The notes under the pieces were generated by a model. That model was not told where the DNA came from, made no database searches, and saw only the letters and a program-made list of their open reading frames with translations. Source: Christensenella timonensis (GTDB lineage: Bacteria > Bacillota > Clostridia > Christensenellales > Christensenellaceae). From it: a DNA stretch of 64,000 nucleotides. A program made the translations under genes and the position numbers. Where the stretch lies: assembly GCF_900087015.1 (NCBI RefSeq), contig NZ_FLKP01000002.1:310001-374000 (forward strand), given 5' to 3'. Below, in pieces: positions 3,265 to 32,899 of the stretch (within the stretch, counting starts at the first letter, position 1; each line of letters opens with the position of its first letter).

Positions 3265-3288
3265 TGATTCTCACTCCTTCATTTATTT

Positions 3289-3320: not shown

Positions 3321-3395
3321 AGTTGCCTTCTCGTTCACCAAATGGTATGATTATATATAATAAAGTAGAAAACTTTCATCAGGTAGGTTCTTATT

Positions 3396-4400: not shown

Positions 4401-4418
4401 TCTTCTTTTCTCTCCTTT

Positions 4419-4449
4419 AAGCGTGCTGCCTTCTGGCAGTACGCTTTTT
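4419..4449 (+). terminator. Terminator of the LacI-type gene
   Basis: Twelve-pair stem 4419-4430 with 4435-4446 (one G-T pair), TTCT loop, T run to 4449. Confidence 0.85.
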
Positions 4450-4493
4450 GTTGCGCTCGCAAGCGGGAACAGCAGCGGATTGTAACAAAGAGA

Positions 4494-4524
4494 GGAAAGG
4501 CAGACATTTCTGTCCGCCTTTTCC
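4494..4524 (-). terminator. Hairpin closing the DhaL-importer operon
   Basis: GGAAAGGCAGACA (4494-4506) pairs with TGTCCGCCTTTTCC (4511-4524) with one mismatch. It lies 30 bases after the DhaL stop on the minus strand. The following tract is only partly T-rich, so strength is uncertain. Confidence 0.6.
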
Positions 4525-4553
4525 ATCATCTATGCTTAGAAGCTATACCATTG

Positions 4554-5177: not shown

Positions 5178-5198
5178 TTCTATCGCCTCCTAAAGCCG

Positions 5199-7219: not shown

Positions 7220-7232
7220 AAGTCACACCCCC

Positions 7233-8240: not shown

Positions 8241-8255
8241 AACGATACCCCCTTC

Positions 8256-9743: not shown

Positions 9744-9778
9744 GATCTTGTCCACCTTTCCCCCGTTATCATATGCAA

Positions 9779-9800
9779 GGCTCCCCTTTTCGGGGGAGCC
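9779..9800 (-). terminator. Stem-loop between binding protein and ATPase genes
   Basis: GGCTCCCC (9779-9786) pairs perfectly with GGGGAGCC (9793-9800). There is no good T run on the minus strand, so it is more likely an RNA-stabilising or partial-termination hairpin that lets the binding protein be made in excess over the membrane subunits. Confidence 0.6.
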
Positions 9801-9830
9801 CAACATACTTTATTAAAGATTCGTTGTGTC

Positions 9831-17280: not shown

Positions 17281-18645
17281 TTAGAACCGCGTATCGTACT
17301 GTTTGTTTTCCTGCAGGATATCTTCCAGGATATTTTTTGCCACTGTTTCGCTGTGCACGAACGGATCGATGAGCAGCGACTGCAACGCCAGCGTTTTGTC
17401 GCCTGTTGCGGTCGCGTCCGCTGCCAGCAGCGCCATACGGCCGTTGAGCTCGCAGATCGCGGCAGCCGCGTCAGGCAGCCGGCCGATCTTTGTCTGGGCC
17501 ACGTAATCCGGGCCGATCACGCCGCACGTCTCAACGATGAGGTCAGGAGACAGGTTTTCGATCGTGCCGCCGTTCACCGCATTGAAAGCCGGAAAATAGG
17601 TGGGGTCTCCGCCGAACATATAGCGGCTGATCTGTGTGCTCATCCAGCCTGTCCTCCTCTGTTTGATAAACGCCTGCGCACTTTCCTTGCCTGTGATCTT
17701 TGCTGCGATCTGCGCCCATGCGTCCTTGTCGCGGCCCCCGAACCAGTCTTTTACCGGGAAGGGATAAAGGCCGCAGCGTTCCTGGTTGCCTTTATCGGAC
17801 GACCAGCAATAATCCGCTACGTGGCTGTCGGCCGGGGAACCGAACAGCCCGAACAATTTATAGACCTCCGTGCAGTAACGGTAGCCTGCCGGGATATCCG
17901 AAAGCGGCACGCTGTCGAGGATCGACTTGAGTTTCGGGTACAGGTCTTCGCCTGTCTTTTTGTCGCGTACGTCGAGGATCCACATCATGTGGTTGACGCC
18001 TGCCTGCCGCAGCGTGATGTTGTCCGCCGGGCACATGAATTCGCGTTCCACAGGGTCTGCAAGCTTGGTGCTTTCGTCCCTGTCCGTCATACCTAAAATC
18101 TGTTCGAGCGCCATTTGTACGAGCTCGTGCCCATAGCAGTAGCCCACTACTTTTGTTTTGCTGTGGCGCGTGACCGCCGCCTGGATCCTTGCGAGCGGGT
18201 TGTTGTCGAGCACCAGCCATGCCTGCGGGCACAGCTCTTCCATATCCGCCGCGATATCGAGCGCGAGCGGTACGTGGCGCATTGCCATCGAAAGCCCTGC
18301 CGGGCCTGTCGTATGGAATTCATACGGGTTGAGGCCGTGTTTCTGGCAGATCTCCAGCTCCCTGGCCCACGCGTGCATGTAATTGACCGCTGCGAACATG
18401 TAGACGACCTTTGCGCCGGGAAGCATGTCCCTGCGGTCGGGACTGCCGATAAATTCCACGTCCCAGTCCATGATCTCGTTTAATTTCTTGCCGATATTCA
18501 GCACTTCTTCGAGGCGCTCCGGACGCCTGTCCACCAGAGCGACCGTGCAGCCCCTGAATTCTTCATATTTGAAGATCTCCTGTAAAAAGAACTCCGTATA
18601 CTGGCTTCCCGAGCCGATCAATACGATTTTGTTTTCTCTTGCCAT
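17281..18645 (-). CDS. Glycoside hydrolase family 4 enzyme (NAD and metal dependent)
   Basis: A 454-residue GH4 glycosidase. This family cleaves alpha- or beta-glycosides by transient oxidation at C3 using tightly bound NAD and Mn(II). The Rossmann start KIVLIGSGSQYTEFF, the NNP motif (N149), the metal ligands C170 (GYCYGH) and H219 (GVNHMMWILDV), and GEDLYPKL all match the family. The start at 18645 is set by AAGGAGG nine bases upstream. It is the last gene of the ROK-controlled importer operon and so probably hydrolyses the imported glycoside inside the cell. Whether it acts on phosphorylated or free sugar is not visible; alpha-galactosidase-like members are its nearest look-alikes. Confidence 0.9.
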   Translation of the reverse strand: MARENKIVLIGSGSQYTEFFLQEIFKYEEFRGCTVALVDRRPERLEEVLNIGKKLNEIMDWDVEFIGSPDRRDMLPGAKVVYMFAAVNYMHAWARELEICQKHGLNPYEFHTTGPAGLSMAMRHVPLALDIAADMEELCPQAWLVLDNNPLARIQAAVTRHSKTKVVGYCYGHELVQMALEQILGMTDRDESTKLADPVEREFMCPADNITLRQAGVNHMMWILDVRDKKTGEDLYPKLKSILDSVPLSDIPAGYRYCTEVYKLFGLFGSPADSHVADYCWSSDKGNQERCGLYPFPVKDWFGGRDKDAWAQIAAKITGKESAQAFIKQRRTGWMSTQISRYMFGGDPTYFPAFNAVNGGTIENLSPDLIVETCGVIGPDYVAQTKIGRLPDAAAAICELNGRMALLAADATATGDKTLALQSLLIDPFVHSETVAKNILEDILQENKQYDTRF

Positions 18646-18661
18646 GATAGTTTCCTCCTTG

Positions 18662-19627
18662 CTATCTCTTCGCATTCTTTCTTGCATAGTTGATCAATAT
18701 CAAAAGCACCACCGCGCCGTAAATGATTTTGCGCACGGGCTCTCCCATCTGTATCGTCATCAGCAGGGACTCCAAGATGGTCAGGAAAATAACGCCCGTG
18801 ACCGCCCCGCCGTAGTTGCCCTGCCCGCCGGTAAGCGATATCCCGCCGACGACCGCCGCCGCAATGGACGGCATGACATAGGCACCGCCGGTCTCTAAAT
18901 TGTTCGGGGTAGACATATACCCGAGCAGGAACATGCCCGCGATGCCGCATACAAGGCCGCCCGCGCCGTACGCCAGTACCCGCACAAGGCGCGTATCCAC
19001 GCCTGAGAGTTCCGCCGTCATGCGGTTTGCACCTACGCCGTAGAGCATACTTCCCAGTTTGGTTTTTTTCGTGATCAGCATCACCGCCACAATGATGAGC
19101 GCCCATACCCAGATCATGTTAGGAATGCCGGCGACATTGCCGTATACGAAGCTGTACAATATGCTGGGCGCCATGCCGTTCGGGAACCCCCCGGTATAAA
19201 GCAGCATAAAACCAATGATGACGCTGCTCATGGAAAGCGTCATGATGAGCGGCGGTATTTTCAGGATTGCTACGCCCAGGCCGTTGATGAGGCCGAAGCC
19301 CACGCTTACTGCAAGCGCAACGATAATGGCGAGCGCTAAATGATTGGTATCCGTATTGATTTGCGCGATCAGGATCATCGCAAATTGCAGGATGGAACCG
19401 ACCGACAGGTCTATTCCCCCGCTGTCCACGACCATGACGATCGTCTGCGCCAGGGTAATGATGCCCAGGAAGGCCGCGATCATCAGGAGGTTCAGTATGT
19501 TGGATGGCGCTGCAAATCCCGGAGATATGATTTGTCCGGCTACTAACAGTATAACAGATAACAGGATCGCCATAAATGTATTTGACTGGATCCCTTTTTT
19601 TAATGCCAGTGTTTTACTCGTATTCAT
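18662..19627 (-). CDS. Sugar ABC transporter permease (RbsC family)
   Basis: A 321-residue membrane subunit with the family motif VVDSGGIDLSVGSILQFAM and the coupling segment VVGGISLTGGQGNYGGAVTGVIFLTIL. The ATG at 19627 has GAGGTGG seven bases upstream, and this ribosome site overlaps the stop codon of the preceding permease, so translation is coupled. An in-frame GTG at 19636 is less likely. It forms a heterodimeric channel with the neighbouring permease. Confidence 0.9.
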   Translation of the reverse strand: MNTSKTLALKKGIQSNTFMAILLSVILLVAGQIISPGFAAPSNILNLLMIAAFLGIITLAQTIVMVVDSGGIDLSVGSILQFAMILIAQINTDTNHLALAIIVALAVSVGFGLINGLGVAILKIPPLIMTLSMSSVIIGFMLLYTGGFPNGMAPSILYSFVYGNVAGIPNMIWVWALIIVAVMLITKKTKLGSMLYGVGANRMTAELSGVDTRLVRVLAYGAGGLVCGIAGMFLLGYMSTPNNLETGGAYVMPSIAAAVVGGISLTGGQGNYGGAVTGVIFLTILESLLMTIQMGEPVRKIIYGAVVLLILINYARKNAKR

Positions 19628-19637
19628 GTTCGCCACC

Positions 19638-20600
19638 TCAACTCGTCCGTTTCTTTAGGTTCGGGATCGCTGCGATAAAAAGTGCGATGATCACGATCAA
19701 TCCCCTGATCATATCCTGGTAAAAGGACGGGATGCCGGCAAAATAAATGATATTGGTGATCAGTATCATGATGGAGCCGCCGAGCGCCGCGCCAAGCATT
19801 TTTCCTGTGCCGCCCATAAGGGAGATACCGCCCATGATCGCCGCGGCGACCGTTGTGAGCTGGTATGTATTTCCAACCCTGAAATCCCCGGCGCCCGTCT
19901 GCCCCGAGACGATGATGCCTACGATCCAGATGAAGAAGCCGGAAAGCAGGAACGCGCAGAACTTGATGCGTTTGGCGTTGATGCCGCTCGCTTCCGCGGC
20001 AGCCTCGTTGCCGCCTACGGCATAGATATATTTTCCGAATTTTGTTTTGGAGATGATCCACCACAGCACGCCCACTGCCGCCAGTAGCAGCACGGTGGCA
20101 GGCAATACGCCGCCGATACTGGCCGAGTAAAGCCCGGGCAGCCATTTGGGGATGTACCCGCCCGGTACCGGGAGTACCAACAGGGAAATGCCTATCAGCA
20201 TCATGGATACGGCAAAGGTCGCGACCATGGAGGGCAGCCGCAGATATGCGACCAGCACGCCATTTAGTGCGCTTACCGCAAGCGCCGCCAGCAGGCTCAC
20301 CGCAAAGGCGAACATCACCGATTCGGGCGTATCGCCCATCGTCGTTGCCAACATGCAGTTGACCAGCGAGATGGCTGCGCCGATGGACAGGTCTATGCTG
20401 CCGCTGATGATGACGATACTTTGCGCGATCGTCGCTACCACAATGGGGGTGATGACCGACAGGTTCCCGTAGATCGTGCCTGCGGAAAAGAACCGCTGGT
20501 CGAGAATCACGTTTAAACCGAATATAATGATAAAAATCGTAACGCCGGCAAACAGAGAACTTTTTGTGATCGACTTGAGATTAATCTGTGCTTTTTCCAT
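19638..20600 (-). CDS. Sugar ABC transporter permease (RbsC family)
   Basis: A 320-residue membrane subunit. It has IISGSIDLSIGAAISLVNCML (the GGIDLS motif with Ser for the second Gly) and IMGGISLMGGTGKMLGAALGGSIM for ATPase contact. Its start lies 20 bases inside the end of the ATPase gene, with GGAGGCGGAG before the ATG. Its closest partner is the permease immediately downstream. Confidence 0.9.
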   Translation of the reverse strand: MEKAQINLKSITKSSLFAGVTIFIIIFGLNVILDQRFFSAGTIYGNLSVITPIVVATIAQSIVIISGSIDLSIGAAISLVNCMLATTMGDTPESVMFAFAVSLLAALAVSALNGVLVAYLRLPSMVATFAVSMMLIGISLLVLPVPGGYIPKWLPGLYSASIGGVLPATVLLLAAVGVLWWIISKTKFGKYIYAVGGNEAAAEASGINAKRIKFCAFLLSGFFIWIVGIIVSGQTGAGDFRVGNTYQLTTVAAAIMGGISLMGGTGKMLGAALGGSIMILITNIIYFAGIPSFYQDMIRGLIVIIALFIAAIPNLKKRTS

Positions 20601-22110
20601 TTTCTCCGCCTCCTTCGTTATGCATGTGCAGCGCTTCTTCCACCAGCCGCGCGTCGCTCAGCTCTTCGCGCGGCACTTCCGCGACGACCTTCCCCTCGAA
20701 CATGACCAATACCCGGTTGCAGATATCGACCAGCTCGTGGTTATCGCTTGCATAGAGCAGCACCGCTTTGCCTTCCTGCGCAAAGCCCCGGCATATTTCG
20801 TAAAGCTCCCTGCGCGCTTCCACGTCGATCCCTTTGGCAGGGTCGGACATCAGCAGCACGTTGGGCTTACGGTTGATCCACTTTCCGACGACGACCTTTT
20901 GCTGGTTGCCTCCTGACAGGTTCCCTACGTTCATGGATGGATCACGCGGCGTGAGCGATATTTTGTCCATCAGCTCGTCCGTCTTTTTTTTGAGCGCGCG
21001 GTGTTTCAATATAAAGGGCGATTTTCGACTGCAAAATTCCGGATACAGCAGGTTGTCAAAAACGGTGTGCTGCAGAAACAAACCTTCCTTGTTGCGGTCT
21101 CCGGGCACCAGCACCACGCCCGCGTCGATCGCTTTTTTGGCGCTGTTCCACTTTGTTTTTTCGTTTTTGAAATAGATTTCCCCGGACGTCTTGGGCAAAA
21201 AGCCCGAGATGGCCAGCAGCAGTTCTTCCTGTCCCATCCCCTGCAGCCCGGATATCCCCACGATCTCGCCTTCTTTCACCTCAAAATTGATATCGTGCAG
21301 GATATTTTTGATGCATAAATTTTCTACCTTGAGCATGGCAGCGCCCAGCTTCGCACCGGAGGCGTGTACCTGCGTTTCTTCCTCTTTTCCGGTGATCTCG
21401 CGAAGGATCTTTTTGTTGTGTTCCTCCGGGTCGATCTCCCGCAGGTCAAGCGTACTCACTGTTTTTCCGTTTCTTAAAACCACGACCTTATCGCACAATT
21501 GTGTCACCTCCCACATCCTGTGGGAGATGAACACAATCGATGTGCCTTGTTCTTTCAGCTCTGCTACGATCTCAAAGAGCATGTTTACCTGTGCAAATTC
21601 CAAAGATGCAGTCGGTTCATCCAGTATGAGCAGCTTTGGCTTTAAGGATACCGCTTTACATATTTCCACCAGTTGCTTCTGGGATGGGGAAAGTTCGCTG
21701 ACCTTGCACATTTCGAGCCCTTGTAAGCCGAACCGTTCAAGCGCCTGTTTTGCCTGCGCAAGCAGTGTGCGGCTGTCGATCAGTATCCCCTTTTTTTGTT
21801 CGTTGCCCATGCAGATGTTTTCCCACACCGTCATGTCGTTCACAAGGCTTAAATTCTGATGCGCCATGGCGATGCCGATCTTAAGCGCCTGCTTTGTGGA
21901 ATGGATCGTCACGGGCTTCCCTTCAAAGAGGATCTCCCCGCTGTCCGCGCAGTAAAGGCCCGAAATCACGCGGGACAGCGTTGTCTTTCCCGAACCGTTG
22001 GCCCCGAGCAGCCCGCATACCGTACCTTGCTCGATCTTTATGCTGGCTTCGCTTAAGGCGACCACGCCCCCGAAATGCTTGCTGATCCCTTTCACCTCTA
22101 ATGTGTTCAT
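20581..22110 (-). CDS. Sugar ABC transporter ATPase (RbsA family, two nucleotide-binding domains)
   Basis: A 509-residue double ATPase. Domain 1 is canonical: GLLGANGSGKTTLSRVISG, signature region LSPSQKQLVEICKAV, and LLILDEPTASLE. Domain 2 has a natural glycine-rich but weak Walker A (GLQGMGQEE), LSGGNQQKVVVGKWI, and a Walker B of VLLMSDPAKGID in which the aspartate is serine and the glutamate aspartate. As in the first importer of this window, the second site looks hydrolysis-poor. RBS GGAGGGT precedes the ATG at 22110. Confidence 0.92.
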   Translation of the reverse strand: MNTLEVKGISKHFGGVVALSEASIKIEQGTVCGLLGANGSGKTTLSRVISGLYCADSGEILFEGKPVTIHSTKQALKIGIAMAHQNLSLVNDMTVWENICMGNEQKKGILIDSRTLLAQAKQALERFGLQGLEMCKVSELSPSQKQLVEICKAVSLKPKLLILDEPTASLEFAQVNMLFEIVAELKEQGTSIVFISHRMWEVTQLCDKVVVLRNGKTVSTLDLREIDPEEHNKKILREITGKEEETQVHASGAKLGAAMLKVENLCIKNILHDINFEVKEGEIVGISGLQGMGQEELLLAISGFLPKTSGEIYFKNEKTKWNSAKKAIDAGVVLVPGDRNKEGLFLQHTVFDNLLYPEFCSRKSPFILKHRALKKKTDELMDKISLTPRDPSMNVGNLSGGNQQKVVVGKWINRKPNVLLMSDPAKGIDVEARRELYEICRGFAQEGKAVLLYASDNHELVDICNRVLVMFEGKVVAEVPREELSDARLVEEALHMHNEGGGENGKSTD

Positions 22111-22144
22111 GTCATACCCTCCATGCCTGCATCCTCCGGCATTT

Positions 22145-23302
22145 TTACTTGCTGAATAAAGCGTCCAGGTCTTCTTCGCCCATCCATTCGTCCGGATAAT
22201 AAGAGTCCGGGCGGCCTTCTGTTTCTACATACTGTGTATAGAATTCGTCAAAATTGTTTTCGTCCACTTTGACCGAAACATCGTACAGATAGGTATTCCC
22301 ATCTACCCATTCGCCCTGGAATTCCTTGCCCTGTGCGATACGCACCGCAAAGCCGAGCGCCGTCGCGCCGATTCCCGGCGGGTTTACAAGGCCAAAGGAT
22401 ACAAAATCCGGATGTTCGTCGCGGATCGTTTTCCATTCCTTCAGCCCCGCGACCTGCGTCTCCCCTGTGGATACGATATCGTCCAGTTTGTTTGCGGATT
22501 TCATAGCATTGTAGATCCCTACCGCCATACCGTCCATGGAAAGGATGCCCTTGAGGTTCGGGTTAGTGGCAATGAGCTGCGAAGCGGCTTTCTGTCCGCC
22601 CGGGTTGTCCCAGTTTCCTACTGCCGTTCCCACGATCTTGATATCGGGATACTGTGCGAGCGCGTCTTTCCAGCCGGCAACGCGCTGGTCGTTTGCGGGC
22701 ATGCCCGGCGTTCCCTCGATGTACGCGACTTCGCCTTCTTTGCCGATCGCATTCGCCAGCCAGTCGGCATACTGGTATCCCCAGGTATAGTGGTCGATCG
22801 TTACATTGTGTACCCCTTCTGCGGAGATCGCCTGGTCAAAAGCAACGACCGTAACGCCTTTTGCAACCGCTTCTTCCGCCACTTCGTTGAGGCCGTCCGC
22901 GGAGATAGGGTTGATGAGCAGTACGTCGATGCCATCGTTCACCATGTTACGGATCTGTGCGATCTGTGCGTTCGTATCCGTTCCGGCATGCTGTACGATG
23001 AGGTCTCCTTCTACCCAGCCTTTGCCTTTGTAGTTTTCAAACACACGCAACACATCGTCGATCATCTGTGCGCGCCATGGATACATGAACGTGTTTGAAA
23101 GGCCTACTTTAAGCGGCTTTACCTGTGCGCCTTCCGCCGGTGCGGAAGCTTCTTCACCGGCAGCGCCCGATTCGGACGCTGCCGCGGACTCGCTTGCCGC
23201 GGGCACATCGGACGCGGATTGCTGTGCCGGAGCAGGTGCGCATGCCACAGCGACCATGGCCACTGCCAGCAACATGACTACTGCAAATGTAATTTTTTTC
23301 AT
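22145..23302 (-). CDS. Sugar-binding lipoprotein of the ROK-controlled importer
   Basis: A 385-residue lipoprotein. The signal peptide ends at the lipobox VAVAC with Cys 21, followed by an Ala/Ser/Glu tether. The mature domain is a type I periplasmic-binding fold: KVGLSNTFMYPWRAQMIDDVLRV, GIDVLLINPISADGLNEVAEEAVAKGVTVVAFDQ, and GVHNVTIDHYTWGYQYADWLANAIG. The aromatic residues in the binding cleft suggest a sugar or glycoside. Its DNA sits between the kinase and ATPase genes, and RBS GAGAGGA is upstream. The ligand is unknown. Confidence 0.92.
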   Translation of the reverse strand: MKKITFAVVMLLAVAMVAVACAPAPAQQSASDVPAASESAAASESGAAGEEASAPAEGAQVKPLKVGLSNTFMYPWRAQMIDDVLRVFENYKGKGWVEGDLIVQHAGTDTNAQIAQIRNMVNDGIDVLLINPISADGLNEVAEEAVAKGVTVVAFDQAISAEGVHNVTIDHYTWGYQYADWLANAIGKEGEVAYIEGTPGMPANDQRVAGWKDALAQYPDIKIVGTAVGNWDNPGGQKAASQLIATNPNLKGILSMDGMAVGIYNAMKSANKLDDIVSTGETQVAGLKEWKTIRDEHPDFVSFGLVNPPGIGATALGFAVRIAQGKEFQGEWVDGNTYLYDVSVKVDENNFDEFYTQYVETEGRPDSYYPDEWMGEEDLDALFSK

Positions 23303-23347
23303 TTTCTTTCCTCTCTTCTTCTTTATGTTTTATTGATTTTGGAATGT

Positions 23348-24445
23348 CTATTCCAAACTGTTGTACCATTGCGTGATGTGTTCTTTTAGCTGCATTATGT
23401 TGGGGCTTTCCCCGTGCATGATGTAATAGCTGGACATGGCATTGCCATAGACATTGCATACATCGCTCGGTGCGCCGCACAGCCTTCCCAGCGCATACCC
23501 TGCATTGAAATTATCGCCCGCGCCGGTCAGCAGCTTGGGCGCTTCGTTGAATTGCGTGGGCAGGGAATATATCTTATGGCCGATGCAGGAATGGCAATCT
23601 TTGCAGCTGTGCAGCACGATACCTGCGACAGCGATCTCGTTCCCCAGTCTCCCGCACAACTGCCTGTAATCGGAAATTTCCTCCGAAAAGAGCATCTTTC
23701 CCACTTCCATCGCTTCGTTTTCATTGAGGCTCAATACCACCGTTCTCACGGTAGCCAGCTGCTCCAGAATCCCGAGCATCTCGCGGATATCCGCTTTTGA
23801 GCGGCGCGAACAGTCCGCCAGATCCACAAAAATTTCTTTGGACTTATCGGGCGTTTGCGCAAGATAGGCGTACAATTTTTCCCAAAGGCAGGAAGCATAT
23901 TCGAGCTCGCTCCAATTGACGAGCGCCAGCATATCGGCGTCTGCAAATACGGTTTCCAGTTTTTCCTCGCCGATACATGCAACGATCTGTGCCCATGCGT
24001 CGTGCTCCATCTTTACATTGGGGGAAAGCATTACCTTCCCGTCTTTAAATTCCAGCGACATGGCGATCGCGTTGTTCCCATAGCTGTACAGCTCGCACTT
24101 TTCGCGCATCCCGTCGAACACTTCATTGATTTGGTTTTTCCCGAACAGGCCGATCACCGATGTATTCACGCCGCATTCGCTGACCGCGTTTGCAAAAATC
24201 GCGCAGTTCCCACCGGGTTTGCGGATGCTTTCATCGAGCTCGATGCTGCAGCTTACCCCGCTTTTGGAGGAAAGGTAATCGCCAAACTCCGCCATCGTTT
24301 CAAAAAATTCCACCGTTTCCCGGTCTTTTTTGCGTACCGCCCTGCAGATGGAATCCGAGCAGCCGTCAAACCCGAGGGTGATCGTTTTTTGGTTTGGTTG
24401 CGCATATTCTAAATTTTGAATTGCTTGTTCCAACAGGTTTTTCAT
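23348..24445 (-). CDS. PfkB family carbohydrate kinase
   Basis: A 365-residue ribokinase-fold enzyme. It shows RKPGGNCAIFANAVSECG, the first PfkB signature with the GGN substrate loop, and LLTGAGDNFNAGYALGRLC, the second signature with the catalytic Asp of GAGD. It is longer than typical PfkB kinases (about 310) because of an insert around residues 60-90. The ATG at 24445 follows AAGGAAC, which overlaps the nagB stop, so the two are coupled. In context it probably phosphorylates the monosaccharide released by the GH4 enzyme, or one imported directly. An amino sugar is plausible because of NagB next to it. Confidence 0.87.
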   Translation of the reverse strand: MKNLLEQAIQNLEYAQPNQKTITLGFDGCSDSICRAVRKKDRETVEFFETMAEFGDYLSSKSGVSCSIELDESIRKPGGNCAIFANAVSECGVNTSVIGLFGKNQINEVFDGMREKCELYSYGNNAIAMSLEFKDGKVMLSPNVKMEHDAWAQIVACIGEEKLETVFADADMLALVNWSELEYASCLWEKLYAYLAQTPDKSKEIFVDLADCSRRSKADIREMLGILEQLATVRTVVLSLNENEAMEVGKMLFSEEISDYRQLCGRLGNEIAVAGIVLHSCKDCHSCIGHKIYSLPTQFNEAPKLLTGAGDNFNAGYALGRLCGAPSDVCNVYGNAMSSYYIMHGESPNIMQLKEHITQWYNSLE

Positions 24446-24458
24446 ATGAAGTAGTTCC

Positions 24459-25190
24459 TTAAACGATTTTTTTTGCGGCTGCTTTGTCGAAATAGAATGT
24501 GATGTCCGCATGGCCGCGGATGAGCGTTACCGGGCAATCCTCTGTTTTTTCGCCCCTGACCGCCTGCTCCACGATATCGGCCTTGTGCTCTCCGAACGCC
24601 ATGACGATCACCTTTTTCGCCTGCATGATCTGCGGAATGCCGATCGTGATGCCCGAAGTGAGCGCATAGTCCTTATCGAAATATTTGGCGCCTACCGTTT
24701 TGCTCGTCTGGCTTAAAGGTACAACGCGGATGCCGTCCGTTTCTTTTGTGCCCGGCTCGTTGAAGCCGATGTGCCCGTTCATGCCGATGCCGAGCAGGAT
24801 AACGTCGATCGCCCCGCCGTTTTGTTCAATGAATTGCGCCGCGCCGTTGCATTCCTTTTTGAGGTCTTCGCTTTGCCCATCAAAGAAGAACATCCGCTCG
24901 CCACGCTCGATTTTGAGTGGCTTTAAAAAATATTTGGATACGTCGTGGATGCAGCTGCCCGGGTCGCCTATGCCGAGGCCGACCCATTCGTCGAGGGAAA
25001 GGAAGCGGAAAGAATCCGCAGGATATTTATTTTCCTGTGCATCGCTCACCAGCCGCTTCATGACCCGAACGGGGGAATGTCCCGCGCACAGGCACATCAG
25101 GGCGTCCTCTTTTTCCCTGACCACATTTTCGATTTCCCCTGCGATTGCCGCGGAGAGCTTCTTTTCGTTTTCTACGATTTGAATGTTCAT
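24459..25190 (-). CDS. nagB: Glucosamine-6-phosphate deaminase family protein
   Basis: A 243-residue NagB-type isomerase/deaminase that would turn glucosamine-6-phosphate into fructose-6-phosphate and ammonia. Catalytic regions are intact: FLSLDEWVGL with the general-base Asp, and GIGMNGHIGFNEPG with the catalytic His and Glu. Asn in place of the Asp before GH is also seen in Bacillus NagB/GamA. It is the first gene of the operon below the ROK regulator, and a 25-base candidate ROK operator (25211-25235) lies immediately upstream. A galactosamine-6-phosphate deaminase is an alternative. No nagA deacetylase is present in the window. Confidence 0.87.
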   Translation of the reverse strand: MNIQIVENEKKLSAAIAGEIENVVREKEDALMCLCAGHSPVRVMKRLVSDAQENKYPADSFRFLSLDEWVGLGIGDPGSCIHDVSKYFLKPLKIERGERMFFFDGQSEDLKKECNGAAQFIEQNGGAIDVILLGIGMNGHIGFNEPGTKETDGIRVVPLSQTSKTVGAKYFDKDYALTSGITIGIPQIMQAKKVIVMAFGEHKADIVEQAVRGEKTEDCPVTLIRGHADITFYFDKAAAKKIV

Positions 25191-25210
25191 ATTATCTTAT
25201 TGCCTCCTAT

Positions 25211-25235
25211 TTAATTAGCTAACTTTGTTAATTAA
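25211..25235 (-). promoter_or_regulatory. Candidate ROK operator upstream of nagB
   Basis: TTAATTAG (25211-25218), nine bases CTAACTTTG, then TTAATTAA (25228-25235): an inverted repeat 21 bases upstream of the nagB start. A near-identical element (TTAATTAG, nine bases, CTAATTAA) lies upstream of the ROK gene at 26457. The half-site and nine-base spacing resemble NagC/Mlc-type operators. Confidence 0.7.
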
Positions 25236-25248
25236 TTGGTGAAAAAAT

Positions 25249-26355
25249 TTACAGGATGTCGCCGATCCTTTTTTCGCACACCATGATGGCGCTTCCTACA
25301 AGCTCAGGCAGCTTGGAACTGGCAAGTTCGCAATTTATTTTTAAAAGGCTGATCTTCTCCAGGTTATTTTGTATCTCCCTTAACAGTTCTCCGCCGAAAT
25401 GGCTGACCAGCAGCCCGCCGACCACAACGAGGTCAAAATCAAGGAGCACCGATACATTTGAGATCGTGAGCGCCAGCGTCTTTGAGATGCGCTCGATGTA
25501 TGCCCGGCTCTTTTGCGGGTCATCCATGCCGCTTTTCATAAATTCCGCTGTATTGACCGTGCTTTCCAACCAACCGATATGCCCTTCCTTGGTGGGAAAA
25601 TCTTCATCGAAGGAAGTGTATGCGATTTCACCGGCAAAGTGATGGATCCCGTGGCGGAGCTCCCCGTTGAGTACCACGCCTGCGCCAAGGCCCGTACCCA
25701 GCGAAATATAAATCAGGTCCTCGTTTTTATCCAGCCGGCGCATTTTGAACTCGCCTACGGCGGCGGCATTGATATCGTTTTCCATGAACACCGGTACGCT
25801 GAGCTTTCCTTCCAACTGCGCCAGCATTTCCGTACAGTCTGTTTTTTCCTTCATACCCACGGTAAAAGCATATTCCACCGTGTTTTTCTGCGTATCCACG
25901 ACGCCCGGCATCCCCAGCCCCACGCCCAGTATCCTCGGCTGCGGGATCTCGTTGCGCTGCGCCAACTGCCGGATGGCTTCCACGATCTCTTTGCCCAGCA
26001 TATCCTGCAGGGGTAAACGCAGGGACATTTGTACATAATCTATGATATCGCCATTTAGGTCGACCAGCGCGATCCTCACGTTTTCGTCCTGGAAGTCGAC
26101 GCCGAAAGCATAAAACGCTTTTTCATTGCGCTTCAAAAGGTTTGGCCTGCGGCCTACGGCGGCCTCCCCTTCACCGGCGTGCAACAATATCCCCTTCTCA
26201 ATGAAGGAATCGATGATCTTGATGACCGTCGGCGCGCTGATTCCCGTCATCCGGCTGATGTCGGCTTTGGAGTAGCTGTTTCCGTCTTGGAACAGGTCAT
26301 AGATGACTTTGCTGTTGTTTTTTTTCAAATGGGAAGGAACGTAAACGTTCATCAT
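25249..26355 (-). CDS. ROK family transcriptional regulator (NagC/XylR-like)
   Basis: A 368-residue ROK regulator. The N-terminal winged helix-turn-helix reads NNSKVIYDLFQDGNSYSKADISRMTGISAPTVIKIIDSFIEKGIL, and the sugar-kinase-like domain follows with GRRPNLL, FGVDFQDENVRIALVDLNG, VGLGMPGVVDTQKNTV, the ROK signature region ENDINAAAVGEF, and a phosphate-binding GTGLGAGVVLNGEL. The zinc-cluster Cys residues typical of NagC are not conserved. It is upstream of the importer and catabolic genes on the same strand and has its own copy of the operator, so it probably represses itself and the operon until a sugar ligand binds. GAGGAATC supports the ATG at 26355 or the next ATG. Confidence 0.92.
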   Translation of the reverse strand: MMNVYVPSHLKKNNSKVIYDLFQDGNSYSKADISRMTGISAPTVIKIIDSFIEKGILLHAGEGEAAVGRRPNLLKRNEKAFYAFGVDFQDENVRIALVDLNGDIIDYVQMSLRLPLQDMLGKEIVEAIRQLAQRNEIPQPRILGVGLGMPGVVDTQKNTVEYAFTVGMKEKTDCTEMLAQLEGKLSVPVFMENDINAAAVGEFKMRRLDKNEDLIYISLGTGLGAGVVLNGELRHGIHHFAGEIAYTSFDEDFPTKEGHIGWLESTVNTAEFMKSGMDDPQKSRAYIERISKTLALTISNVSVLLDFDLVVVGGLLVSHFGGELLREIQNNLEKISLLKINCELASSKLPELVGSAIMVCEKRIGDIL

Positions 26356-26456: not shown

Positions 26457-26481
26457 TTAATTAGTTAACTTTACTAATTAA
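26457..26481 (-). promoter_or_regulatory. Candidate ROK operator upstream of the ROK gene
   Basis: TTAATTAG (26457-26464), TTAACTTTA, CTAATTAA (26474-26481) is a perfect 8-base inverted repeat with a 9-base centre, about 100 bases before the ROK start. It matches the element at 25211-25235. Confidence 0.7.
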
Positions 26482-26582: not shown

Positions 26583-28904
26583 CTAAGATATGCCCCATAT
26601 CTCCCGCGCATATTCCCCGACCGTGCGGTCGCTGGAGAAAAACGCGCTGCGCGCCACATTGTAGAGGCACTTGCGGCCGAACGCCATAGCGTCCTTCGTA
26701 TCGTAGATCGCGCGCAGCTTCTGGTTGACGTAATCCTCAAAGTCGAGCAGCAGCCTGTACTTATCCGCCTGCTGGCAGTAAGAACCGTGCAGCAGCATAT
26801 CGTAGATCGCGCGGAACATGCCCGTGTCCCCATCCGAAAACGTTCCATCCACAAGCGTATCGATCACGCGCCTAAGCCGTGCATTGTTTTCGTAGATCTC
26901 CATTGGGTTGTACGTTCCCTCGATCCGCGCGAGATCCTCGACCCGCGCCCCGAAGATATAATTGTTCTCCTCGCCGGCTTGCGCTGCAATCTCGATGTTC
27001 GCGCCGTCGTACGTGCCCAGCGTGACTGCGCCGTTGAGCATGAACTTCATGTTGCCCGTGCCCGACGCCTCCATGCCCGCGGTGGATATCTGCTCGGAAA
27101 TGTCCGCCGCTGTCACAAGCTTCTCCGCATAGGAAACATCGTAGTTGGAAACGAACACGACCTGCAAAATATCGTTTACCGCAGGGTCATTCTCTATCAT
27201 GCGCCCGATCTCGTTGATGAATTTAATGACCCCTTTGGCAATATAATACCCCGGCGCCGCCTTGGAGCCGAAAATAAACGTTGTCCGCGGGAAATCCGTG
27301 AGCTCCCCGCTTTTGAGGCGGAAATAGATATCCAGGATGGAAAACGCGTTCAAAAGCTGCCGCTTGTATTCGTGCAGCCGCTTGATCTGGATATCGAACA
27401 CCGAATCCGAACGCACGGCGATCCTGTCGCGCTTGTAAATATATTGCGCCAGCTTGTCCTTGCGCACCTGCTTGGCCTGGTTGAAGCGCTGCACAAAGCT
27501 GTCGTCCCCAATATACGGCTCAATGCCCCTGATCTGCTCCAAATCCTTGACCCAGCCCCAGCCGATCTTTTCGGAAATGAGCTCGGAAAGCTCCGGATCG
27601 CAAAGCGCAAGCCACCGGCGCTGCGTCACCCCATTCGTTTTATTGAGGAAGCGTTCGGGGAACCATTCATACCAGCTGCGCAAGACCTTGTCCTTTAAAA
27701 GCTCGGTGTGGATCGCCGCTACGCCATTGACCTTTTTGGAAGCGTACACGGCAAGGCGCGCCATGTGCACCGCGCCGCCGCACAAAATTTCGAGCTCATC
27801 CCTGTTTCTGTTGCCGATCTCCGAGAGCAGCCGGTCGTTTAAAAGCACGACGATCTCATAAAGGTCGGGCAACAAGCCACGGAACAATTCAATATCCCAT
27901 GTTTCGAGCGCCTCGGTCATGATCGTATGGTTGGTGTAGGCAAATACATCGCGCGCCATCAAAAACGCGTCCTCAAATTCCACGCCCATATCCCCCAGCA
28001 ATCGGATGAATTCCGGGATCGCGATCACCGGGTGCGTGTCGTTTAGCTGGATCGTATGGTATTTGGCAAAATCGCGGATATCACATTCGTAGTCGCGCCG
28101 ATACCTGCGCAGTAAGTCCTGCAAGGACGCGCTGGTAAAGAAATACTCCTGCTTTAGGCGCAGCTCCTTGCCTTCACGTGTGCTGTCGTTGGGATACAGC
28201 ACACGCGTGATCATCTCCGCGTTATTTTTCTCCGCAACCGCACCAGTATAATCCCCATCGTTGAATTTCCGGAAATCGAATTCGTTTAAAGCTTCCGACT
28301 GCCACAAGCGCAGCGTATTGACCTGCCCGCCTTCGTAGCCGATGACCGGCATATCGTAAGGTACGGCCTTTACCTCCTGATTATGGAATTTGACGACCAC
28401 GCATTCGTCTTCCTTGCGCAAGAACCACGGGTCTGTATCGCTTTTCCAGTCGTCCGCGATTTCTATCTGGAACCCGTTTTCAAACTTCTGGCGGAAGAGG
28501 CCGTTTTTATACTTGATGCCGTAGCCGATGAGCGGCAGGCCCATCGTGGCCGCGGAATCCAGAAAGCAAGCCGCCAGCCTTCCAAGGCCGCCGTTGCCCG
28601 TCGCAGCGTCTTCCAAATCTTCCATTTTCTTGATATCCACACCGCGCGCAAGCAGCTCCGCCTTCAATTCCTTCAGCCAGCCCAGTGCATACAGGTTGTT
28701 GAACACCATGCGCCCGATCAGGTATTCCGCCGAAAAATAATACGCTTTGCGTTTCTGCGCGTCCCGTTCTTCGTTCCAAACGGGCGAGACTTCCTCTATG
28801 ACTGCTTTTGCGATCGCGGCGTTCAGCTCCGCAGCCGTCGTATCGCACAATCGTTTTTGCATATCGTCCTCTATGATATGCTCTATCCTATCTAACGCTC
28901 TCAT
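26583..28904 (-). CDS. glgP: Glycogen/starch alpha-glucan phosphorylase
   Basis: A 773-residue GT35 phosphorylase that releases glucose-1-phosphate from glycogen or maltodextrins with a pyridoxal-phosphate cofactor. YYFSAEYLIGRMVFNNL, LEDAATGNGGLGRLAACFLDSAATMGLP, FNDGDY, IQLNDTHP, KRLHEYKRQLLN and the PLP-lysine block EASGTGNMKFMLNGA (Lys near residue 620) are family hallmarks. It is about 25-60 residues shorter than E. coli GlgP/MalP, mainly at the N-terminus. The gene stands alone with RBS AAGGAG and its own terminator; no glgABC genes are nearby. Confidence 0.96.
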   Translation of the reverse strand: MRALDRIEHIIEDDMQKRLCDTTAAELNAAIAKAVIEEVSPVWNEERDAQKRKAYYFSAEYLIGRMVFNNLYALGWLKELKAELLARGVDIKKMEDLEDAATGNGGLGRLAACFLDSAATMGLPLIGYGIKYKNGLFRQKFENGFQIEIADDWKSDTDPWFLRKEDECVVVKFHNQEVKAVPYDMPVIGYEGGQVNTLRLWQSEALNEFDFRKFNDGDYTGAVAEKNNAEMITRVLYPNDSTREGKELRLKQEYFFTSASLQDLLRRYRRDYECDIRDFAKYHTIQLNDTHPVIAIPEFIRLLGDMGVEFEDAFLMARDVFAYTNHTIMTEALETWDIELFRGLLPDLYEIVVLLNDRLLSEIGNRNRDELEILCGGAVHMARLAVYASKKVNGVAAIHTELLKDKVLRSWYEWFPERFLNKTNGVTQRRWLALCDPELSELISEKIGWGWVKDLEQIRGIEPYIGDDSFVQRFNQAKQVRKDKLAQYIYKRDRIAVRSDSVFDIQIKRLHEYKRQLLNAFSILDIYFRLKSGELTDFPRTTFIFGSKAAPGYYIAKGVIKFINEIGRMIENDPAVNDILQVVFVSNYDVSYAEKLVTAADISEQISTAGMEASGTGNMKFMLNGAVTLGTYDGANIEIAAQAGEENNYIFGARVEDLARIEGTYNPMEIYENNARLRRVIDTLVDGTFSDGDTGMFRAIYDMLLHGSYCQQADKYRLLLDFEDYVNQKLRAIYDTKDAMAFGRKCLYNVARSAFFSSDRTVGEYAREIWGIS

Positions 28905-29140: not shown

Positions 29141-32100
29141 ATGTCAAAATTCAGCGTAAAAAAACCAATGACCATCTTCGTGGCGGTCGTCCTCGTGTGT
29201 ATCCTGGGGTTCATTTCCTTTACGAGCATGCGCACCGACCTGCTTCCCAAGATGGATCTTCCTTATGTAATGGTACTGACGACCTATCCGGGCGCGAGCC
29301 CTGAAAAGATCGAGCAGACCGTGACGAGGCCGCTCGAGCAGACGCTTGCCACCACAAGCGGTATCAAGAACGTAACGAGCACCTCCAACGAGAACAGCAG
29401 TATGGTACTGCTTGAATTCACGCAGGGAACAAACATGGATAGCGTGATGATCGAGATGAGCGGTAAGATCGACATGGTCAAGGGGAACCTCGACGATGCG
29501 GTGGGTACGCCCACGCTTTTAAAGATCAATCCTGATATCATGCCCGTCATGATCGCAAGCGTCGATATAGAAGGGCAGGATATTACGCAGACCTCCAAGG
29601 CGGTGGAGGAAACGATCCTCCCTGAGTTCGAGCGCATCGACGGGGTCGCCTCCGTTACCGCGGCGGGGCTGGTGGAGGAATCCGTCAAGGTGACGCTCGA
29701 CCAGGATAGGATCGACGAACTGAACCGCCGCGTGCTCGCTTCCGTGGATGAAAAGCTGGCCGAGGCGCAGGAGAAGATCGACGAGGCCAAGGACAAGATT
29801 GCAAGCGGCAAGGAGCAGCTTAATAGTATGAGCCAGACGCAGGCACAGCAACTTGTGGATGCGGGGCTCCAGCTTGACGCCGGACGGGAGCAGCTGCAGG
29901 GCGCGCTCGCGAGCTTGCCGCAAATGCAGCAGGAGCTTGAGGCGCAGCTTGCGGATTTAAAGGCGCAGCGCGATGGCCTTACCTCCCAGCTCGCGGATGC
30001 GACGGCAGGACGCGACGCGCTTGCCGCGCAGATCGCCGCCCTCGTGGCCGCGGGACAAAGCGTTCCCGATACGCTGACCGGGCAGCTTGATACGCTGGAA
30101 GCCGGAATCGCGCAGCTGCAGGACGGCCTCGCGCAGGTGGAAGCCGGAATCGCGCAACTGCAGGACGGCCTCGCGCAGATTCCCGACCAAAAGGCACAGC
30201 TTGAGGCCAAACTAAGCGAGCTTGACGAAGGGGAACGGCAGGTCGAGACCGGCAAGATGGCCCTTACCACAGGCATCGCGGAGGCGTCCGGCCAGCTTGC
30301 GGGCGGAGAGGCGCAGCTCAGCGCGCAGGAGCAGGAATTTGAGGCACAAAAGGACGCGGCCTACAAGCAGGCCGGCCTTGACGGTAAGATCACGCAGGAG
30401 ACGGTGGGCCAGATCCTGTCTGCGGAAAATTTTTCCATGCCTGCTGGTTACATCAGGGACGGGGATGAGAATTTCCTTGTCAAGGTAGGCGACCAGTTCA
30501 AAGATATCGATGAAATCAGGAACCTTGTCGTGTTCGACATTCCCACGGGCGACATCGGACAGGTCAAGCTTTCGGACATCGCGACCGTTGAAATGACAGA
30601 CAATAAGGATGACCTTTACGCAAAGATCAACGGCAACGACGGTATTCTTCTGACCTTCCAGAAACAGAGCACAGCTTCTACCACAGAGGTCTCCGAGCGG
30701 TTGGGCGAAACGATCAAGGCATTGGAGGCGCAAAACCCTAACTTGCACATCACGACCTTAAACGACCAGGGCGTATACATCAACATCGTACTGGATTCCG
30801 TGCTCAATAACCTTTTGCTGGGCGGTATTCTGGCGATCCTGATCCTGTTCCTCTTTTTAAAGGATATCAAACCGACGATCATCGTGGCGATCAGCATCCC
30901 GTTCAGCCTTTTGGCGGCGCTCACGCTGATGTATTTTGCCGGCGTTACCTTGAACGTCATCTCGCTTGCGGGCCTGGCCCTCGGCGTGGGTATGCTGGTG
31001 GATAACAGCATCGTCGTCATCGAGAATATTTACCGCCTGCGCGCGCTGGGCGTTTCAGCCGCCAAGGCGGCCGTCAAGGGCGCGTCACAGGTTGCTGGCG
31101 CGATCGCCGCTTCCACGCTGACCACAGTGTGCGTGTTCCTGCCCATTGTATTTACGGAAGGGCTGACACGCCAGCTGTTCGAGGATATGGGCCTTACCAT
31201 TGCCTTTTCGCTGCTTGCGAGCCTGGTCATTGCGCTCACGCTTGTTCCGGCGATGGGTTCTACCATGATGAAAAACACCAAAGAGAAGCAGCATAAATGG
31301 TTTGATCAATTTACCGCCGGATATGAAAAGCTTTTGTCCGGGGCATTAAAGCGCAAATGGATCGTCGTCGTTTTGGTTGTCGGCCTGTTCGTATTCAGTG
31401 TCGCCAACATCTTTACGATGGGCACGTCCCTGATGCCTAAAATGGACAGCAGCGAAATCATGATCACCATGAACATGCCCAAGGACAGCACGACGCAGCA
31501 GACGCGCGATATGAGCGATGAGATTCTCGCGCGCCTGACAACAGTACCGGATGTAAAAACCATCGGCGCCATGGAAGGCGGAACCATGTCCATCCTCGGC
31601 GGCGGCAGTTCTGCCGGGGGCAACAACACCAGCATGATGATGTATGCCGTTTTGGAGGAGGAAAAAACGCATACCAGCGCGCAGGTTGCGCAGATGATGC
31701 GCGACCAGGTCGCCGATCTCCCCGCAACGGTGGAAATCAGCGATTCCACGATGGATATGTCCGCGCTTTCGGGCTCCGGCCTGGAGGTCGTTTTGAAGGG
31801 CGACGACCTGGATACCTTAAAAACCATCGCGCAGGACATGACCGGCCTGATGGAGCAGACGGAGGGCCTGACGAACATTGACAACGGCCTTAACGAATCC
31901 TCGCAGGAAACGCGTATCGTCGTCGACAAAAACAAGGCGATGGCCTACGGCCTGACGGTCGCGCAGGTATACCAACAGGTCGCCGCAGAGCTTGCGGCCG
32001 GCAAGACGGCGACTACCGTGACGTTTGAAACGCAGGATTACCCTGTGATCGTAGAAAACAGCCCGCAGGACAGCATTTCGCTGGACAAACTGAACGACTT

Positions 32101-32899
32101 CCCGCTAAAAGGGACAAAGGACGGCGAGGAGGAGGAAGTAAAGCTTTCGGATATCGCACAGGTATCGCAGGAACAGAGCCTGACCTCCATCAACCACGAC
32201 GGGCAGGTGCGTACAATGTCTATCACGGCGGAAGTGGATGCAGACCACAACATCGGCCTTGTCAGCCGCGAGTTCTCGCAGAAGTTGGGCGGCTACCAGG
32301 TACCGGACGGCTACAGCGTGGAAATCGCCGGGGAAAACCAGACGATAACGGATACGTTCAGCAACCTGATCTATATGTTCATGCTTGCGGTCGTGCTCAT
32401 TTACCTGATCATGGTGGCCCAGTTCCAGTCCCTAAAATCGCCGTTCATCATCCTGTTCACCATACCCCTCGCGTTTACGGGCGGCCTGCTTGCTCTGCTG
32501 CTGACGGGCATGGAGCTTAGCATGATCGCCCTGCTGGGATTTTTGATCCTTGCGGGCATCGTGGTCAACAATGGGATCGTGTTCGTGGATTACGTCAACC
32601 AGCTGCGCCTTGCGGGCATCGAAAAGAACGAAGCGCTGCTGCGCGCAGGCAAGGCGCGTATCCGTCCGATTTTAATGACGGCCTTAACGACCGTACTCGG
32701 CCTTGTACCGCTCGGATTCGGTATGGGCCAGGGTGCGGAAATGCTCCAGCCTATGGCGGTCGTGACGATCGGCGGGTTGATCTACGCGACATTCATGACG
32801 CTGTTCTTTGTTCCCGTGATGTATGACGGGATGAACAAAAGGCCGATCAAGCAGGTTCTTTTGGAGGAGGGTCTTGACGATGATATCCCCGAAATATAA
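29141..32899 (+). CDS. RND-family efflux transporter with coiled-coil insertion
   Basis: A 1252-residue resistance-nodulation-division pump (AcrB/SwrC type). The first membrane helix is at about residues 12-30, the second block at about 550-700 with LAGLALGVGMLVDNSIVVIENIYR (the conserved VDNSI motif with the proton-relay Asp), the third from about 738, and the last block from about 1075 with AGIVVNNGIVFVDYVNQLR. Between residues about 195 and 410 the extracytoplasmic domain carries a long Ala/Gln/Leu-rich coiled coil (LAEAQEKIDEAKDKIASGKEQL and onwards), absent from Gram-negative AcrB. In monoderms such pumps move drugs or lipids. The promoter has a TetR operator, and the TetR gene overlaps the end of this gene. 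Confidence 0.92.
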   Translation: MSKFSVKKPMTIFVAVVLVCILGFISFTSMRTDLLPKMDLPYVMVLTTYPGASPEKIEQTVTRPLEQTLATTSGIKNVTSTSNENSSMVLLEFTQGTNMDSVMIEMSGKIDMVKGNLDDAVGTPTLLKINPDIMPVMIASVDIEGQDITQTSKAVEETILPEFERIDGVASVTAAGLVEESVKVTLDQDRIDELNRRVLASVDEKLAEAQEKIDEAKDKIASGKEQLNSMSQTQAQQLVDAGLQLDAGREQLQGALASLPQMQQELEAQLADLKAQRDGLTSQLADATAGRDALAAQIAALVAAGQSVPDTLTGQLDTLEAGIAQLQDGLAQVEAGIAQLQDGLAQIPDQKAQLEAKLSELDEGERQVETGKMALTTGIAEASGQLAGGEAQLSAQEQEFEAQKDAAYKQAGLDGKITQETVGQILSAENFSMPAGYIRDGDENFLVKVGDQFKDIDEIRNLVVFDIPTGDIGQVKLSDIATVEMTDNKDDLYAKINGNDGILLTFQKQSTASTTEVSERLGETIKALEAQNPNLHITTLNDQGVYINIVLDSVLNNLLLGGILAILILFLFLKDIKPTIIVAISIPFSLLAALTLMYFAGVTLNVISLAGLALGVGMLVDNSIVVIENIYRLRALGVSAAKAAVKGASQVAGAIAASTLTTVCVFLPIVFTEGLTRQLFEDMGLTIAFSLLASLVIALTLVPAMGSTMMKNTKEKQHKWFDQFTAGYEKLLSGALKRKWIVVVLVVGLFVFSVANIFTMGTSLMPKMDSSEIMITMNMPKDSTTQQTRDMSDEILARLTTVPDVKTIGAMEGGTMSILGGGSSAGGNNTSMMMYAVLEEEKTHTSAQVAQMMRDQVADLPATVEISDSTMDMSALSGSGLEVVLKGDDLDTLKTIAQDMTGLMEQTEGLTNIDNGLNESSQETRIVVDKNKAMAYGLTVAQVYQQVAAELAAGKTATTVTFETQDYPVIVENSPQDSISLDKLNDFPLKGTKDGEEEEVKLSDIAQVSQEQSLTSINHDGQVRTMSITAEVDADHNIGLVSREFSQKLGGYQVPDGYSVEIAGENQTITDTFSNLIYMFMLAVVLIYLIMVAQFQSLKSPFIILFTIPLAFTGGLLALLLTGMELSMIALLGFLILAGIVVNNGIVFVDYVNQLRLAGIEKNEALLRAGKARIRPILMTALTTVLGLVPLGFGMGQGAEMLQPMAVVTIGGLIYATFMTLFFVPVMYDGMNKRPIKQVLLEEGLDDDIPEI
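30096..30179 (+). repeat. 42-bp tandem duplication inside the pump's coiled coil
   Basis: Two adjacent 42-base units (30096-30137 and 30138-30179) differ at few positions and encode LEAGIAQLQDGLAQ and VEAGIAQLQDGLAQ. The in-frame 14-residue duplication equals two heptads, so it lengthens the coiled coil without breaking its register. Confidence 0.85.

Follow-up and report, generated by a model that had tools for sequence, protein, structure and literature searches.

Enzymes of glycoside hydrolase family 4 (GH4) cleave their substrates by oxidation, elimination, addition of water and reduction (PMC10628242). In the chb operon of Escherichia coli, the GH4 enzyme ChbF cleaves glycosides of glucosamine-6P, which is a precedent for GH4 action on glucosaminides, and the product then passes to NagB (PMC12791066). 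Here we describe an operon that resembles this system, located on the minus strand (positions 17281-26355) of a 64,000-nucleotide stretch of DNA from Christensenella timonensis (NZ_FLKP01000002.1, positions 310,001 to 374,000), hereafter called the window. Its eight genes encode, in order, a ROK regulator, a NagB-like protein, a sugar kinase, the binding protein, double ATPase and two permeases of a CUT2-type ATP-binding cassette (ABC) importer, and a GH4 enzyme. The chb operon depends on uptake of phosphorylated sugar by a phosphotransferase system (PTS) and on the deacetylase ChbG, with NagB encoded elsewhere, whereas the window operon has ABC uptake and a separate kinase. ChbF also has the motif CNIP at the Mn cysteine where the window GH4 has CYGHE, and the two NagB proteins belong to different subfamilies. 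A chb-type chitobiose pathway was rejected, as ChbF stood apart on a long branch in the GH4 tree and none of the eight genes encodes a PTS component or a deacetylase.

Cleavage by redox elimination is also found in the levoglucosan (lgd) and 3-keto-glycoside pathways. In the lgd pathway, the steps of GH4 are divided among a dehydrogenase, a MocA-family reductase and two proteins that carry the annotation of sugar phosphate isomerases; its authors compare the pathway to GH4, and an ABC importer lies beside the lgd genes (PMC7676230). Four separate proteins thus do there what GH4 does alone, and a kinase/NagB-like pair is not named in the available part of that report. Relatives of the window pair sit in operons with genes for MocA and a TIM-barrel protein, or with 3-keto hydrolase genes. 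Haloarchaeal ketohexokinases belong to the same Pfam family (PF25270) as the window kinase; they are reported to convert fructose to fructose-1-phosphate in mannitol and sorbitol use (PMC11519228), whereas the window kinase is paired with a NagB-like protein and GH4. In the Aga/Gam galactosamine pathway (AgaI, AgaS, KbaY), AgaI is akin to the NagB-like proteins considered here in its position in our NagB tree; that pathway has PTS genes and AgaI is reported to be merely auxiliary in galactosamine-6P deamination (PMC12118421), whereas no PTS gene is present in the window operon.

The original prediction for this locus, made by a model from the sequence, remarked that the combination was not known to it as a described pathway. 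A search of the open-licence literature, which does not cover subscription papers, likewise brought up no published pathway built from these genes. Each kind of enzyme is known; as far as could be seen, the gene set, the non-canonical NagB-like clade and the link to redox cleavage are undescribed.

Proposed route

The operon probably regulates itself, imports a small glycoside, which GH4 cuts, and delivers the sugar to glycolysis through the kinase and its isomerase-like partner. Our full explanation is an inducible operon in which a glycoside would yield an aldose, then an aldose-6-phosphate and finally a ketose-6-phosphate, the last step most likely releasing ammonia; we assign it a probability of about 0.5. 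One small glycoside would be taken up, unphosphorylated, by the CUT2 importer. With its bound NAD, GH4 would oxidise C3 and, aided by Mn, eliminate the aglycone; addition of water and re-reduction would then give the free aldose. This would be phosphorylated by the kinase, most likely at O6, and the NagB-like enzyme would convert the aldose-6-phosphate to the ketose-6-phosphate, most likely releasing ammonia from a 2-amino-2-deoxyhexose of the glucosamine or galactosamine type. Repression of the operon, including the promoter of ROK itself, would come from the ROK protein acting at two palindromic operators, and would end when the sugar or a product bound to the regulator. We regard the chance that the released sugar is an amino sugar as roughly even, and the rest of the route as firmer. 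The computation itself establishes the gene content, the folds with their retained catalytic residues, the recurring kinase/NagB-like pair with its tie to redox-type cleavage, and the operator-like box common to several loci; the order of reactions, O6 as the site, the amino group, the repression and the inducer are inferred.

The gene order, the single direction and the compactness given in the original prediction agreed with our coordinates, and Pfam searches agreed with its superfamilies. The route of that prediction, from import through GH4 cleavage and phosphorylation to a NagB step, is also the one we prefer, with an amino sugar as the candidate substrate.

Recurrence of the kinase/NagB-like pair beside redox cleavage systems

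Named genomes were scanned with an alignment of four kinases, which yielded at least 484 relatives; a scan of the same kind with a single kinase sequence had turned up none. The best 80 loci, chosen by kinase similarity alone, were kept. Of these, 46 carry a NagB-family gene no more than 5 kb from the kinase; in 37 loci the two genes share a strand and are at most 150 nt apart. Other genes within 5 kb encoded GH4 (14 loci), MocA (29), an IolE-like TIM-barrel protein (15), an SIS protein (6) and ROK (7). A search for conserved neighbourhoods of GH4, NagB and the kinase had been suggested with the original prediction, and these counts show that the kinase and NagB-family part recurs in many genomes. 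The NagB-linked loci came from Bacteroidota (23), Bacillota (22) and Spirochaetota (1). Six TIM-bearing loci from the 18-row kinase set described below were inspected at the level of single genes; they belong to Oscillibacter, Butyricicoccus, Sinanaerobacter, a Dysosmobacter, a Family XIII bacterium and a spirochaete, and all had importer genes followed by MocA, TIM, NagB and the kinase.

In the kinase tree, from which two of 106 rows were left out by length, the window kinase fell in an 18-row set (SH-aLRT 99); 16 rows, including the window, were NagB-linked, and 14 had a TIM gene. In a phylum sample, 20 places outside the window's own genome exceeded the PF25270 cut-off, and among the 16 of them that were read NagB was found in none, SIS in three and GH4 in two. 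The link to NagB is therefore confined to one part of the kinase family. Within the class, 22 of 391 genomes had a match to the kinase alignment. None of the five other genomes of the genus showed the operon: they had no NagB match at 1e-30, and the three with a kinase had it at 27-30% identity.

Genes for GH4, MocA, IolE-like TIM proteins, GMC oxidoreductases or 3-keto-disaccharide hydrolases were present within 5-6 kb in 42 of the 46 NagB-linked loci, and in only 8 of the 28 loci that had neither NagB nor SIS (Fisher p 3e-8, which is too small because the rows are related; MocA is, moreover, a common family). By Pfam, locus L150 carries a GMC oxidoreductase and a 3-keto-disaccharide hydrolase (PF06439), L203 carries PF06439 and MocA, and the IolE-like protein of L159 belongs to the xylose-isomerase-like TIM barrel family (PF01261), a fold presumably shared by the published levoglucosan eliminases. 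The pair thus occurs beside three different oxidative ways of cutting glycosides, and this is the strongest argument that cleavage would come first, phosphorylation second and isomerisation third. The fate of the 3-ketogalactose set free by 3-keto cleavage was called unknown in one report (PMC9007349).

A more general reading makes the PF25270 kinase and the NagB-like protein the shared lower half of glycoside breakdown by redox (3-keto) chemistry in different phyla, no matter which cutter precedes them: GH4, MocA with an IolE-like eliminase, or a GMC dehydrogenase with a 3-keto-disaccharide hydrolase. The released sugar, an unusual one of amino or 3-keto origin, would enter glycolysis through the pair, and the NagB-like proteins would be a new enzyme class rather than glucosamine-6-phosphate deaminases. 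We consider this reading, taken as a whole, doubtful and put it forward tentatively.

MocA-type dehydrogenases of Mucilaginibacter (L150, 8102-9238) were 67-71% identical to one from a genome of the window's order (L126, 12411-13493), and NagB-like genes adjoin both, which points to a likely transfer of a cassette across phyla.

GH4 enzyme and importer

The GH4 gene (17281-18645, minus strand) passed the Pfam cut-offs for both the N-terminal (PF02056, 123.3 bits) and the C-terminal domain (PF11975, 90.2 bits), and it is the sole PF02056 match in the genome. Its longest open reading frame (ORF) begins at 18687; the likely start is 18645, 16 nt past the permease stop and preceded by an AAGGA-type ribosome site. 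The structural model had a pLDDT of 82.5, and GH4 enzymes made up the first 49 entries among the 50 structure matches listed. Six residues, G25, G27, S28, N163, C184 and H233, were invariant across 12 aligned GH4 proteins. We take Cys184 and His233 to be the Mn ligands and GxGS to be the NAD-binding motif; the sequence is thus consistent with the NAD- and Mn-dependent redox hydrolase that had been predicted.

Certain motifs after the Mn cysteine (CHS, CHG, CDMP and CN-P) mark GH4 classes, and the window enzyme has none of them. It reads CYGHE, with Tyr after the cysteine, and its ortholog in L126 reads CNGHE. In the 42 other rows of the GH4 tree, this residue was His in 40 and Asn in two, ChbF and L126. 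In a HMMER alignment, the counterpart of CYGHE was the CHGH of AglA (1obb) rather than the phospho-glycosidase motifs CDMP or CNVP, so the substrate of GH4 is likely unphosphorylated. Together with the ABC importer, this alignment suggests that the glycoside is likely unphosphorylated when cleaved. NCBIfam gave no guide to the substrate class, since the two models that matched were both far under cut-off. The tree, which left out L164, L194 and L218 by length, grouped the window GH4 and its ortholog with enzymes from further kinase loci, in a set of 15 rows (SH-aLRT 88, not starred), and the GH4 of kinase loci L132, L134 and L217 proved to be of the MelA type.

One clear ortholog, 55% identical, was found among 101 related genomes (G038). 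It was rejected as an instance of the same operon: NagB lies about 7 kb from GH4, but the kinase is absent from the 19 kb read and lies on another contig. Near GH4 in two loci are proteins of about 430 residues (L126, 4846-6132; L163, 16689-18002) that are 29% identical and have no Pfam or NCBIfam match.

By Pfam, the CUT2 importer set is complete, and all its genes are on the minus strand: a sugar-binding lipoprotein (22145-23302; PF13407, Peripla_BP_4, 168.7 bits), an RbsA-type double ATPase with two ABC_tran stretches (20581-22110) and two permeases with the BPD_transp_2 domain PF02653 (19638-20600, 105 bits; 18662-19636, 93 bits). The ATPase matched the AraG, xylose and RbsA models, all under the equivalog cut-offs. 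The solved structures nearest to the binding protein are sugar-binding proteins of the ribose/monosaccharide type; as numerous such structures scored comparably, its substrate could not be inferred from them.

Sugar kinase

The kinase gene (23348-24445, minus strand; longest ORF from 24511) likely starts at 24445, 13 nt past the NagB-like stop, with an AAGGA-type ribosome site in front. The product scored 132.1 bits against PF25270 (Khk; cut-off 35) and 23.8 bits against the classical PfkB family PF00294, under the cut-off of 25.8. The PfkB kinase of the original prediction is accordingly a sugar kinase, as supposed, and has the ribokinase fold, but by score its family is that of the ketohexokinases. 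In its motif GAGDNFNAG, residues G330, G332, D333 and N336 were invariant in 22 sequences. The model (pLDDT 93.3) has the ribokinase fold; comparison with Foldseek and VIA-align left the nearest enzyme unclear, ADP-dependent glucokinase (Z 29.5) and ribokinase (Z 28.9) being tied. A haloarchaeal ketohexokinase of this family is reported to be inactive on glucose, galactose and the other aldoses named, amino sugars not being among those named in the available text (PMC11519228).

This family membership raises the question of whether the pair handles an Amadori-type ketosamine or another ketose, with phosphorylation of the ketohexokinase kind and the NagB-like protein acting as a deglycase or isomerase. 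FrlD and FrlB carry out kinase and deglycase steps of this sort for fructoselysine, and the SIS partners of some loci are reminiscent of FrlB. The tested PF25270 members are, moreover, reported as ketohexokinases (PMC11519228). Amadori products, however, need no glycosidase, yet 42 of the 46 NagB-linked loci have GH4 or other redox glycoside enzymes. In the six loci with an SIS protein, it stands in the place of NagB, and the only one scanned (L143) scored best to GlmS, then to GlmD and NagB-II, all under cut-off. We consider the handling of a ketosamine or another ketose by this pair very unlikely.

A second PF25270 kinase is encoded in the same genome (L052, 9643-10752; C2:1051642-1052751) and is 30% identical to the window kinase. 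Near it lie a sugar-epimerase-like gene, MocA and an URO-D-like gene, named by eye and by BLAST.

NagB-like protein and the question of the amino group

The NagB-like protein (24459-25190, minus strand; PF01182, 75.3 bits), the sole PF01182 match in the genome, belongs to a non-canonical subfamily of sugar-phosphate isomerases/deaminases. It retains D72, N141, H143, E148 and K208 (E. coli NagB numbering). We take D72, H143 and E148 to be the catalytic positions of the deaminase and Arg172 to be a phosphate contact. At position 172, Lys is present in the window protein and in 47 of 48 kinase-linked sequences; among 27 unlinked NagB proteins, Arg was found in 20, Lys in three and other residues in four. 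The unlinked rows were L126 and 26 of the best matches from one order, rather than a sample of all NagB proteins. In the NagB tree, which left out L218 (an ORF of 786 residues), a branch with SH-aLRT 100 separated 47 of the 48 kinase-linked proteins from a group that contained E. coli NagB and 24 of the 27 unlinked ones. AgaI of E. coli fell on the kinase-linked side; it forms a long branch, and its kinship with the linked proteins is therefore loose. All our trees were quick ones, in which the long rows (window NagB, E. coli NagB, AgaI, ChbF and several kinases) are unsurely placed.

The original prediction had NagB convert glucosamine-6-phosphate to fructose-6-phosphate. This was not supported in that form: given that the protein groups apart from E. 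coli NagB in the tree and carries Lys at position 172, these compounds cannot be read off the gene. The predicted lack of NagA was borne out: the operon has none, and TIGR00221, a model that matched in 14 of 14 control genomes (above cut-off in seven), had no match in the genome (2.65 Mb, 97.7% complete).

An amino sugar is favoured by the retained deaminase residues, the lack of NagA and the SIS partners in six of the 80 loci. The principal alternative has the same operon logic and a sugar without an amino group, the NagB-like protein being a plain isomerase of aldose-6-phosphate and ketose-6-phosphate acting on an uncommon hexose released by GH4. The Lys at position 172 and the tree position fit such an isomerase, as do the missed NCBIfam cut-offs given below; the SIS partners of the sister loci could equally be isomerases, and 3-keto systems like those beside the pair in Bacteroidota have been reported to act on lactose and other ordinary glycosides (PMC9007349). 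Nonetheless, D72, H143, E148 and K208 are kept in all 48 kinase-linked proteins, and the SIS fold, which is unrelated and has amino-sugar-phosphate members, partners the same kinase family. With no NagA, a free amino sugar would require exactly this gene set. We judge a plain isomerase rather unlikely, though the most serious competitor to the amino-sugar route.

Several findings weigh against the amino-sugar route. Identity between the NagB-like protein and E. coli NagB is 23%, and the former missed the cut-off of every NCBIfam model that it matched (best NF001684, 172 against 326; TIGR00502, 144 against 236.9). The supported branch that parts it from E. coli NagB, both being long, and the Lys shared with the other linked sequences count in the same direction, as does the auxiliary role of AgaI, which lies on its side of the tree (PMC12118421). 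Neither GH4 nor the kinase bears a direct sign of an amino sugar, and the characterised PF25270 kinases act on fructose at O1 and not on the aldoses named in the report on them (PMC11519228). NagB and SIS were both absent within 5 kb in 28 of the 80 kinase loci, seven of which have GH4. Finally, in L127 the position taken by GH4 in other ROK/kinase/NagB loci is occupied by a GDPD glycerophosphodiester phosphodiesterase (8671-9411), so that a phosphodiester may be the bond cut there.

ROK regulator and operator-like boxes

The ROK gene (25249-26355, minus strand) encodes a helix-turn-helix domain (PF13412) and a ROK domain (PF00480, 104.2 bits), both above cut-off, and its product is 32-36% identical to those of the kinase loci L127, L163, L164, L180, L182 and L192. 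Before it lies a promoter-like site, from TTGACA at 26508 to TATATT ending at 26480, that matches the consensus at 11 of 12 positions, this being a consensus match only. Two 25-bp palindromes on the minus strand flank the gene: TTAATTAGTAAAGTTAACTAATTAA (26457-26481), which overlaps the end of the promoter-like -10 box, and TTAATTAACAAAGTTAGCTAATTAA (25211-25235), between the ROK and NagB-like genes. At up to three mismatches, these are the only two such places in the genome, and a reversed control gave none. Control by ROK, as originally predicted, is thus consistent with two operator-like palindromes beside the gene.

A weight matrix built from the two window sites was used to scan 105 kinase loci, with 40 shuffles as controls, and 12 loci beat all 40. 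The six strongest (L127, L164, L180, L192, L163 and L182) all bear ROK; the others were L170 and L194 (both with ROK), L209 and L178 (both with GH4), L186 and L196, the last with a weak best site (7.7) that no listed gene start follows. Measured from the site centre, best sites lay 17-38 nt before the kinase (L127, L163, L164, L182), 13-165 nt before ROK in the strongest loci, and 16-35 nt before MttB or NagB (L163, L164, L182, L192). Those of L180 were situated ahead of ROK and, judged by eye, ahead of importer genes. In Robinsoniella peoriensis the kinase is preceded by the site TTAATTAACAAAGTTAGTTAATTAA. No such box was found in the ROK-bearing loci L056 and L049, which were not among the 12. 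Because boxes precede the kinase, ROK, MttB or NagB in distant ROK loci, one ROK regulon seems to be conserved, in which the transporter (CUT1 or CUT2) and the cleaving enzyme (GH4, or GDPD in L127) vary.

Corrinoid methyltransferase genes stand beside several of these kinase loci (L163, 7032-8477 and 11026-12081; L164, 7062-8459; L178, 6913-9503; L192, 8093-9646 and 14887-15891; L127, 10134-11522). Pfam matched MTTB in L163, URO-D in L163, L164, L178 and L192, and RACo in L192; the MttB of L164 and L178 were recognised by BLAST to that of L127, itself named by eye. These genes suggest methylated substrates in those relatives. The window substrate might then be the glycoside of an N-methylated or quaternary amino sugar, or of a quaternary amine, which in the relatives a corrinoid methyltransferase would first demethylate. 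MttB, URO-D/MtaA-type or RACo genes do lie by kinase/GH4 sets (L163, L164, L178, L192) and a kinase/NagB set (L127), and a ROK-like box is found 16 nt (L163) and 33 nt (L164) before MttB. Yet the MTTB family has no match in the window's genome, and MttB lies within 5 kb in just four of the 80 named loci, which makes a methylated substrate for the window operon highly improbable.

Neighbouring genes

A PF00343 phosphorylase gene (26583-28904) lies upstream on the same strand, 227 nt from the operon. A terminator scan did no better than chance (12 found, 11.4 expected in shuffles), and the G+C content of the operon shows no contrast that would point to a foreign origin. Elsewhere in the window (2089-10988), a second CUT2-type importer, with a binding protein, double ATPase and two permeases, is accompanied by a DhaK-type gene (Dak1) and adjoined by an iron alcohol dehydrogenase and a LacI regulator; this is perhaps a polyol or triose operon. 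A 1252-residue protein encoded on the plus strand (29141-32899) resembles, by eye alone, an RND-type efflux pump.

Conclusions

The kinase/NagB-like pair, which spans Bacillota, Bacteroidota and one spirochaete, seems common to many bacteria and unstudied, and it has no assigned job in the literature found. Routine annotation may call its members a PfkB/ketohexokinase and a glucosamine-6-phosphate deaminase, and both names may be wrong. Because the ROK box is conserved, the regulon lends itself to testing, and once the substrate is named, dozens of operons, together with one side of the NagB family tree, would gain a function.

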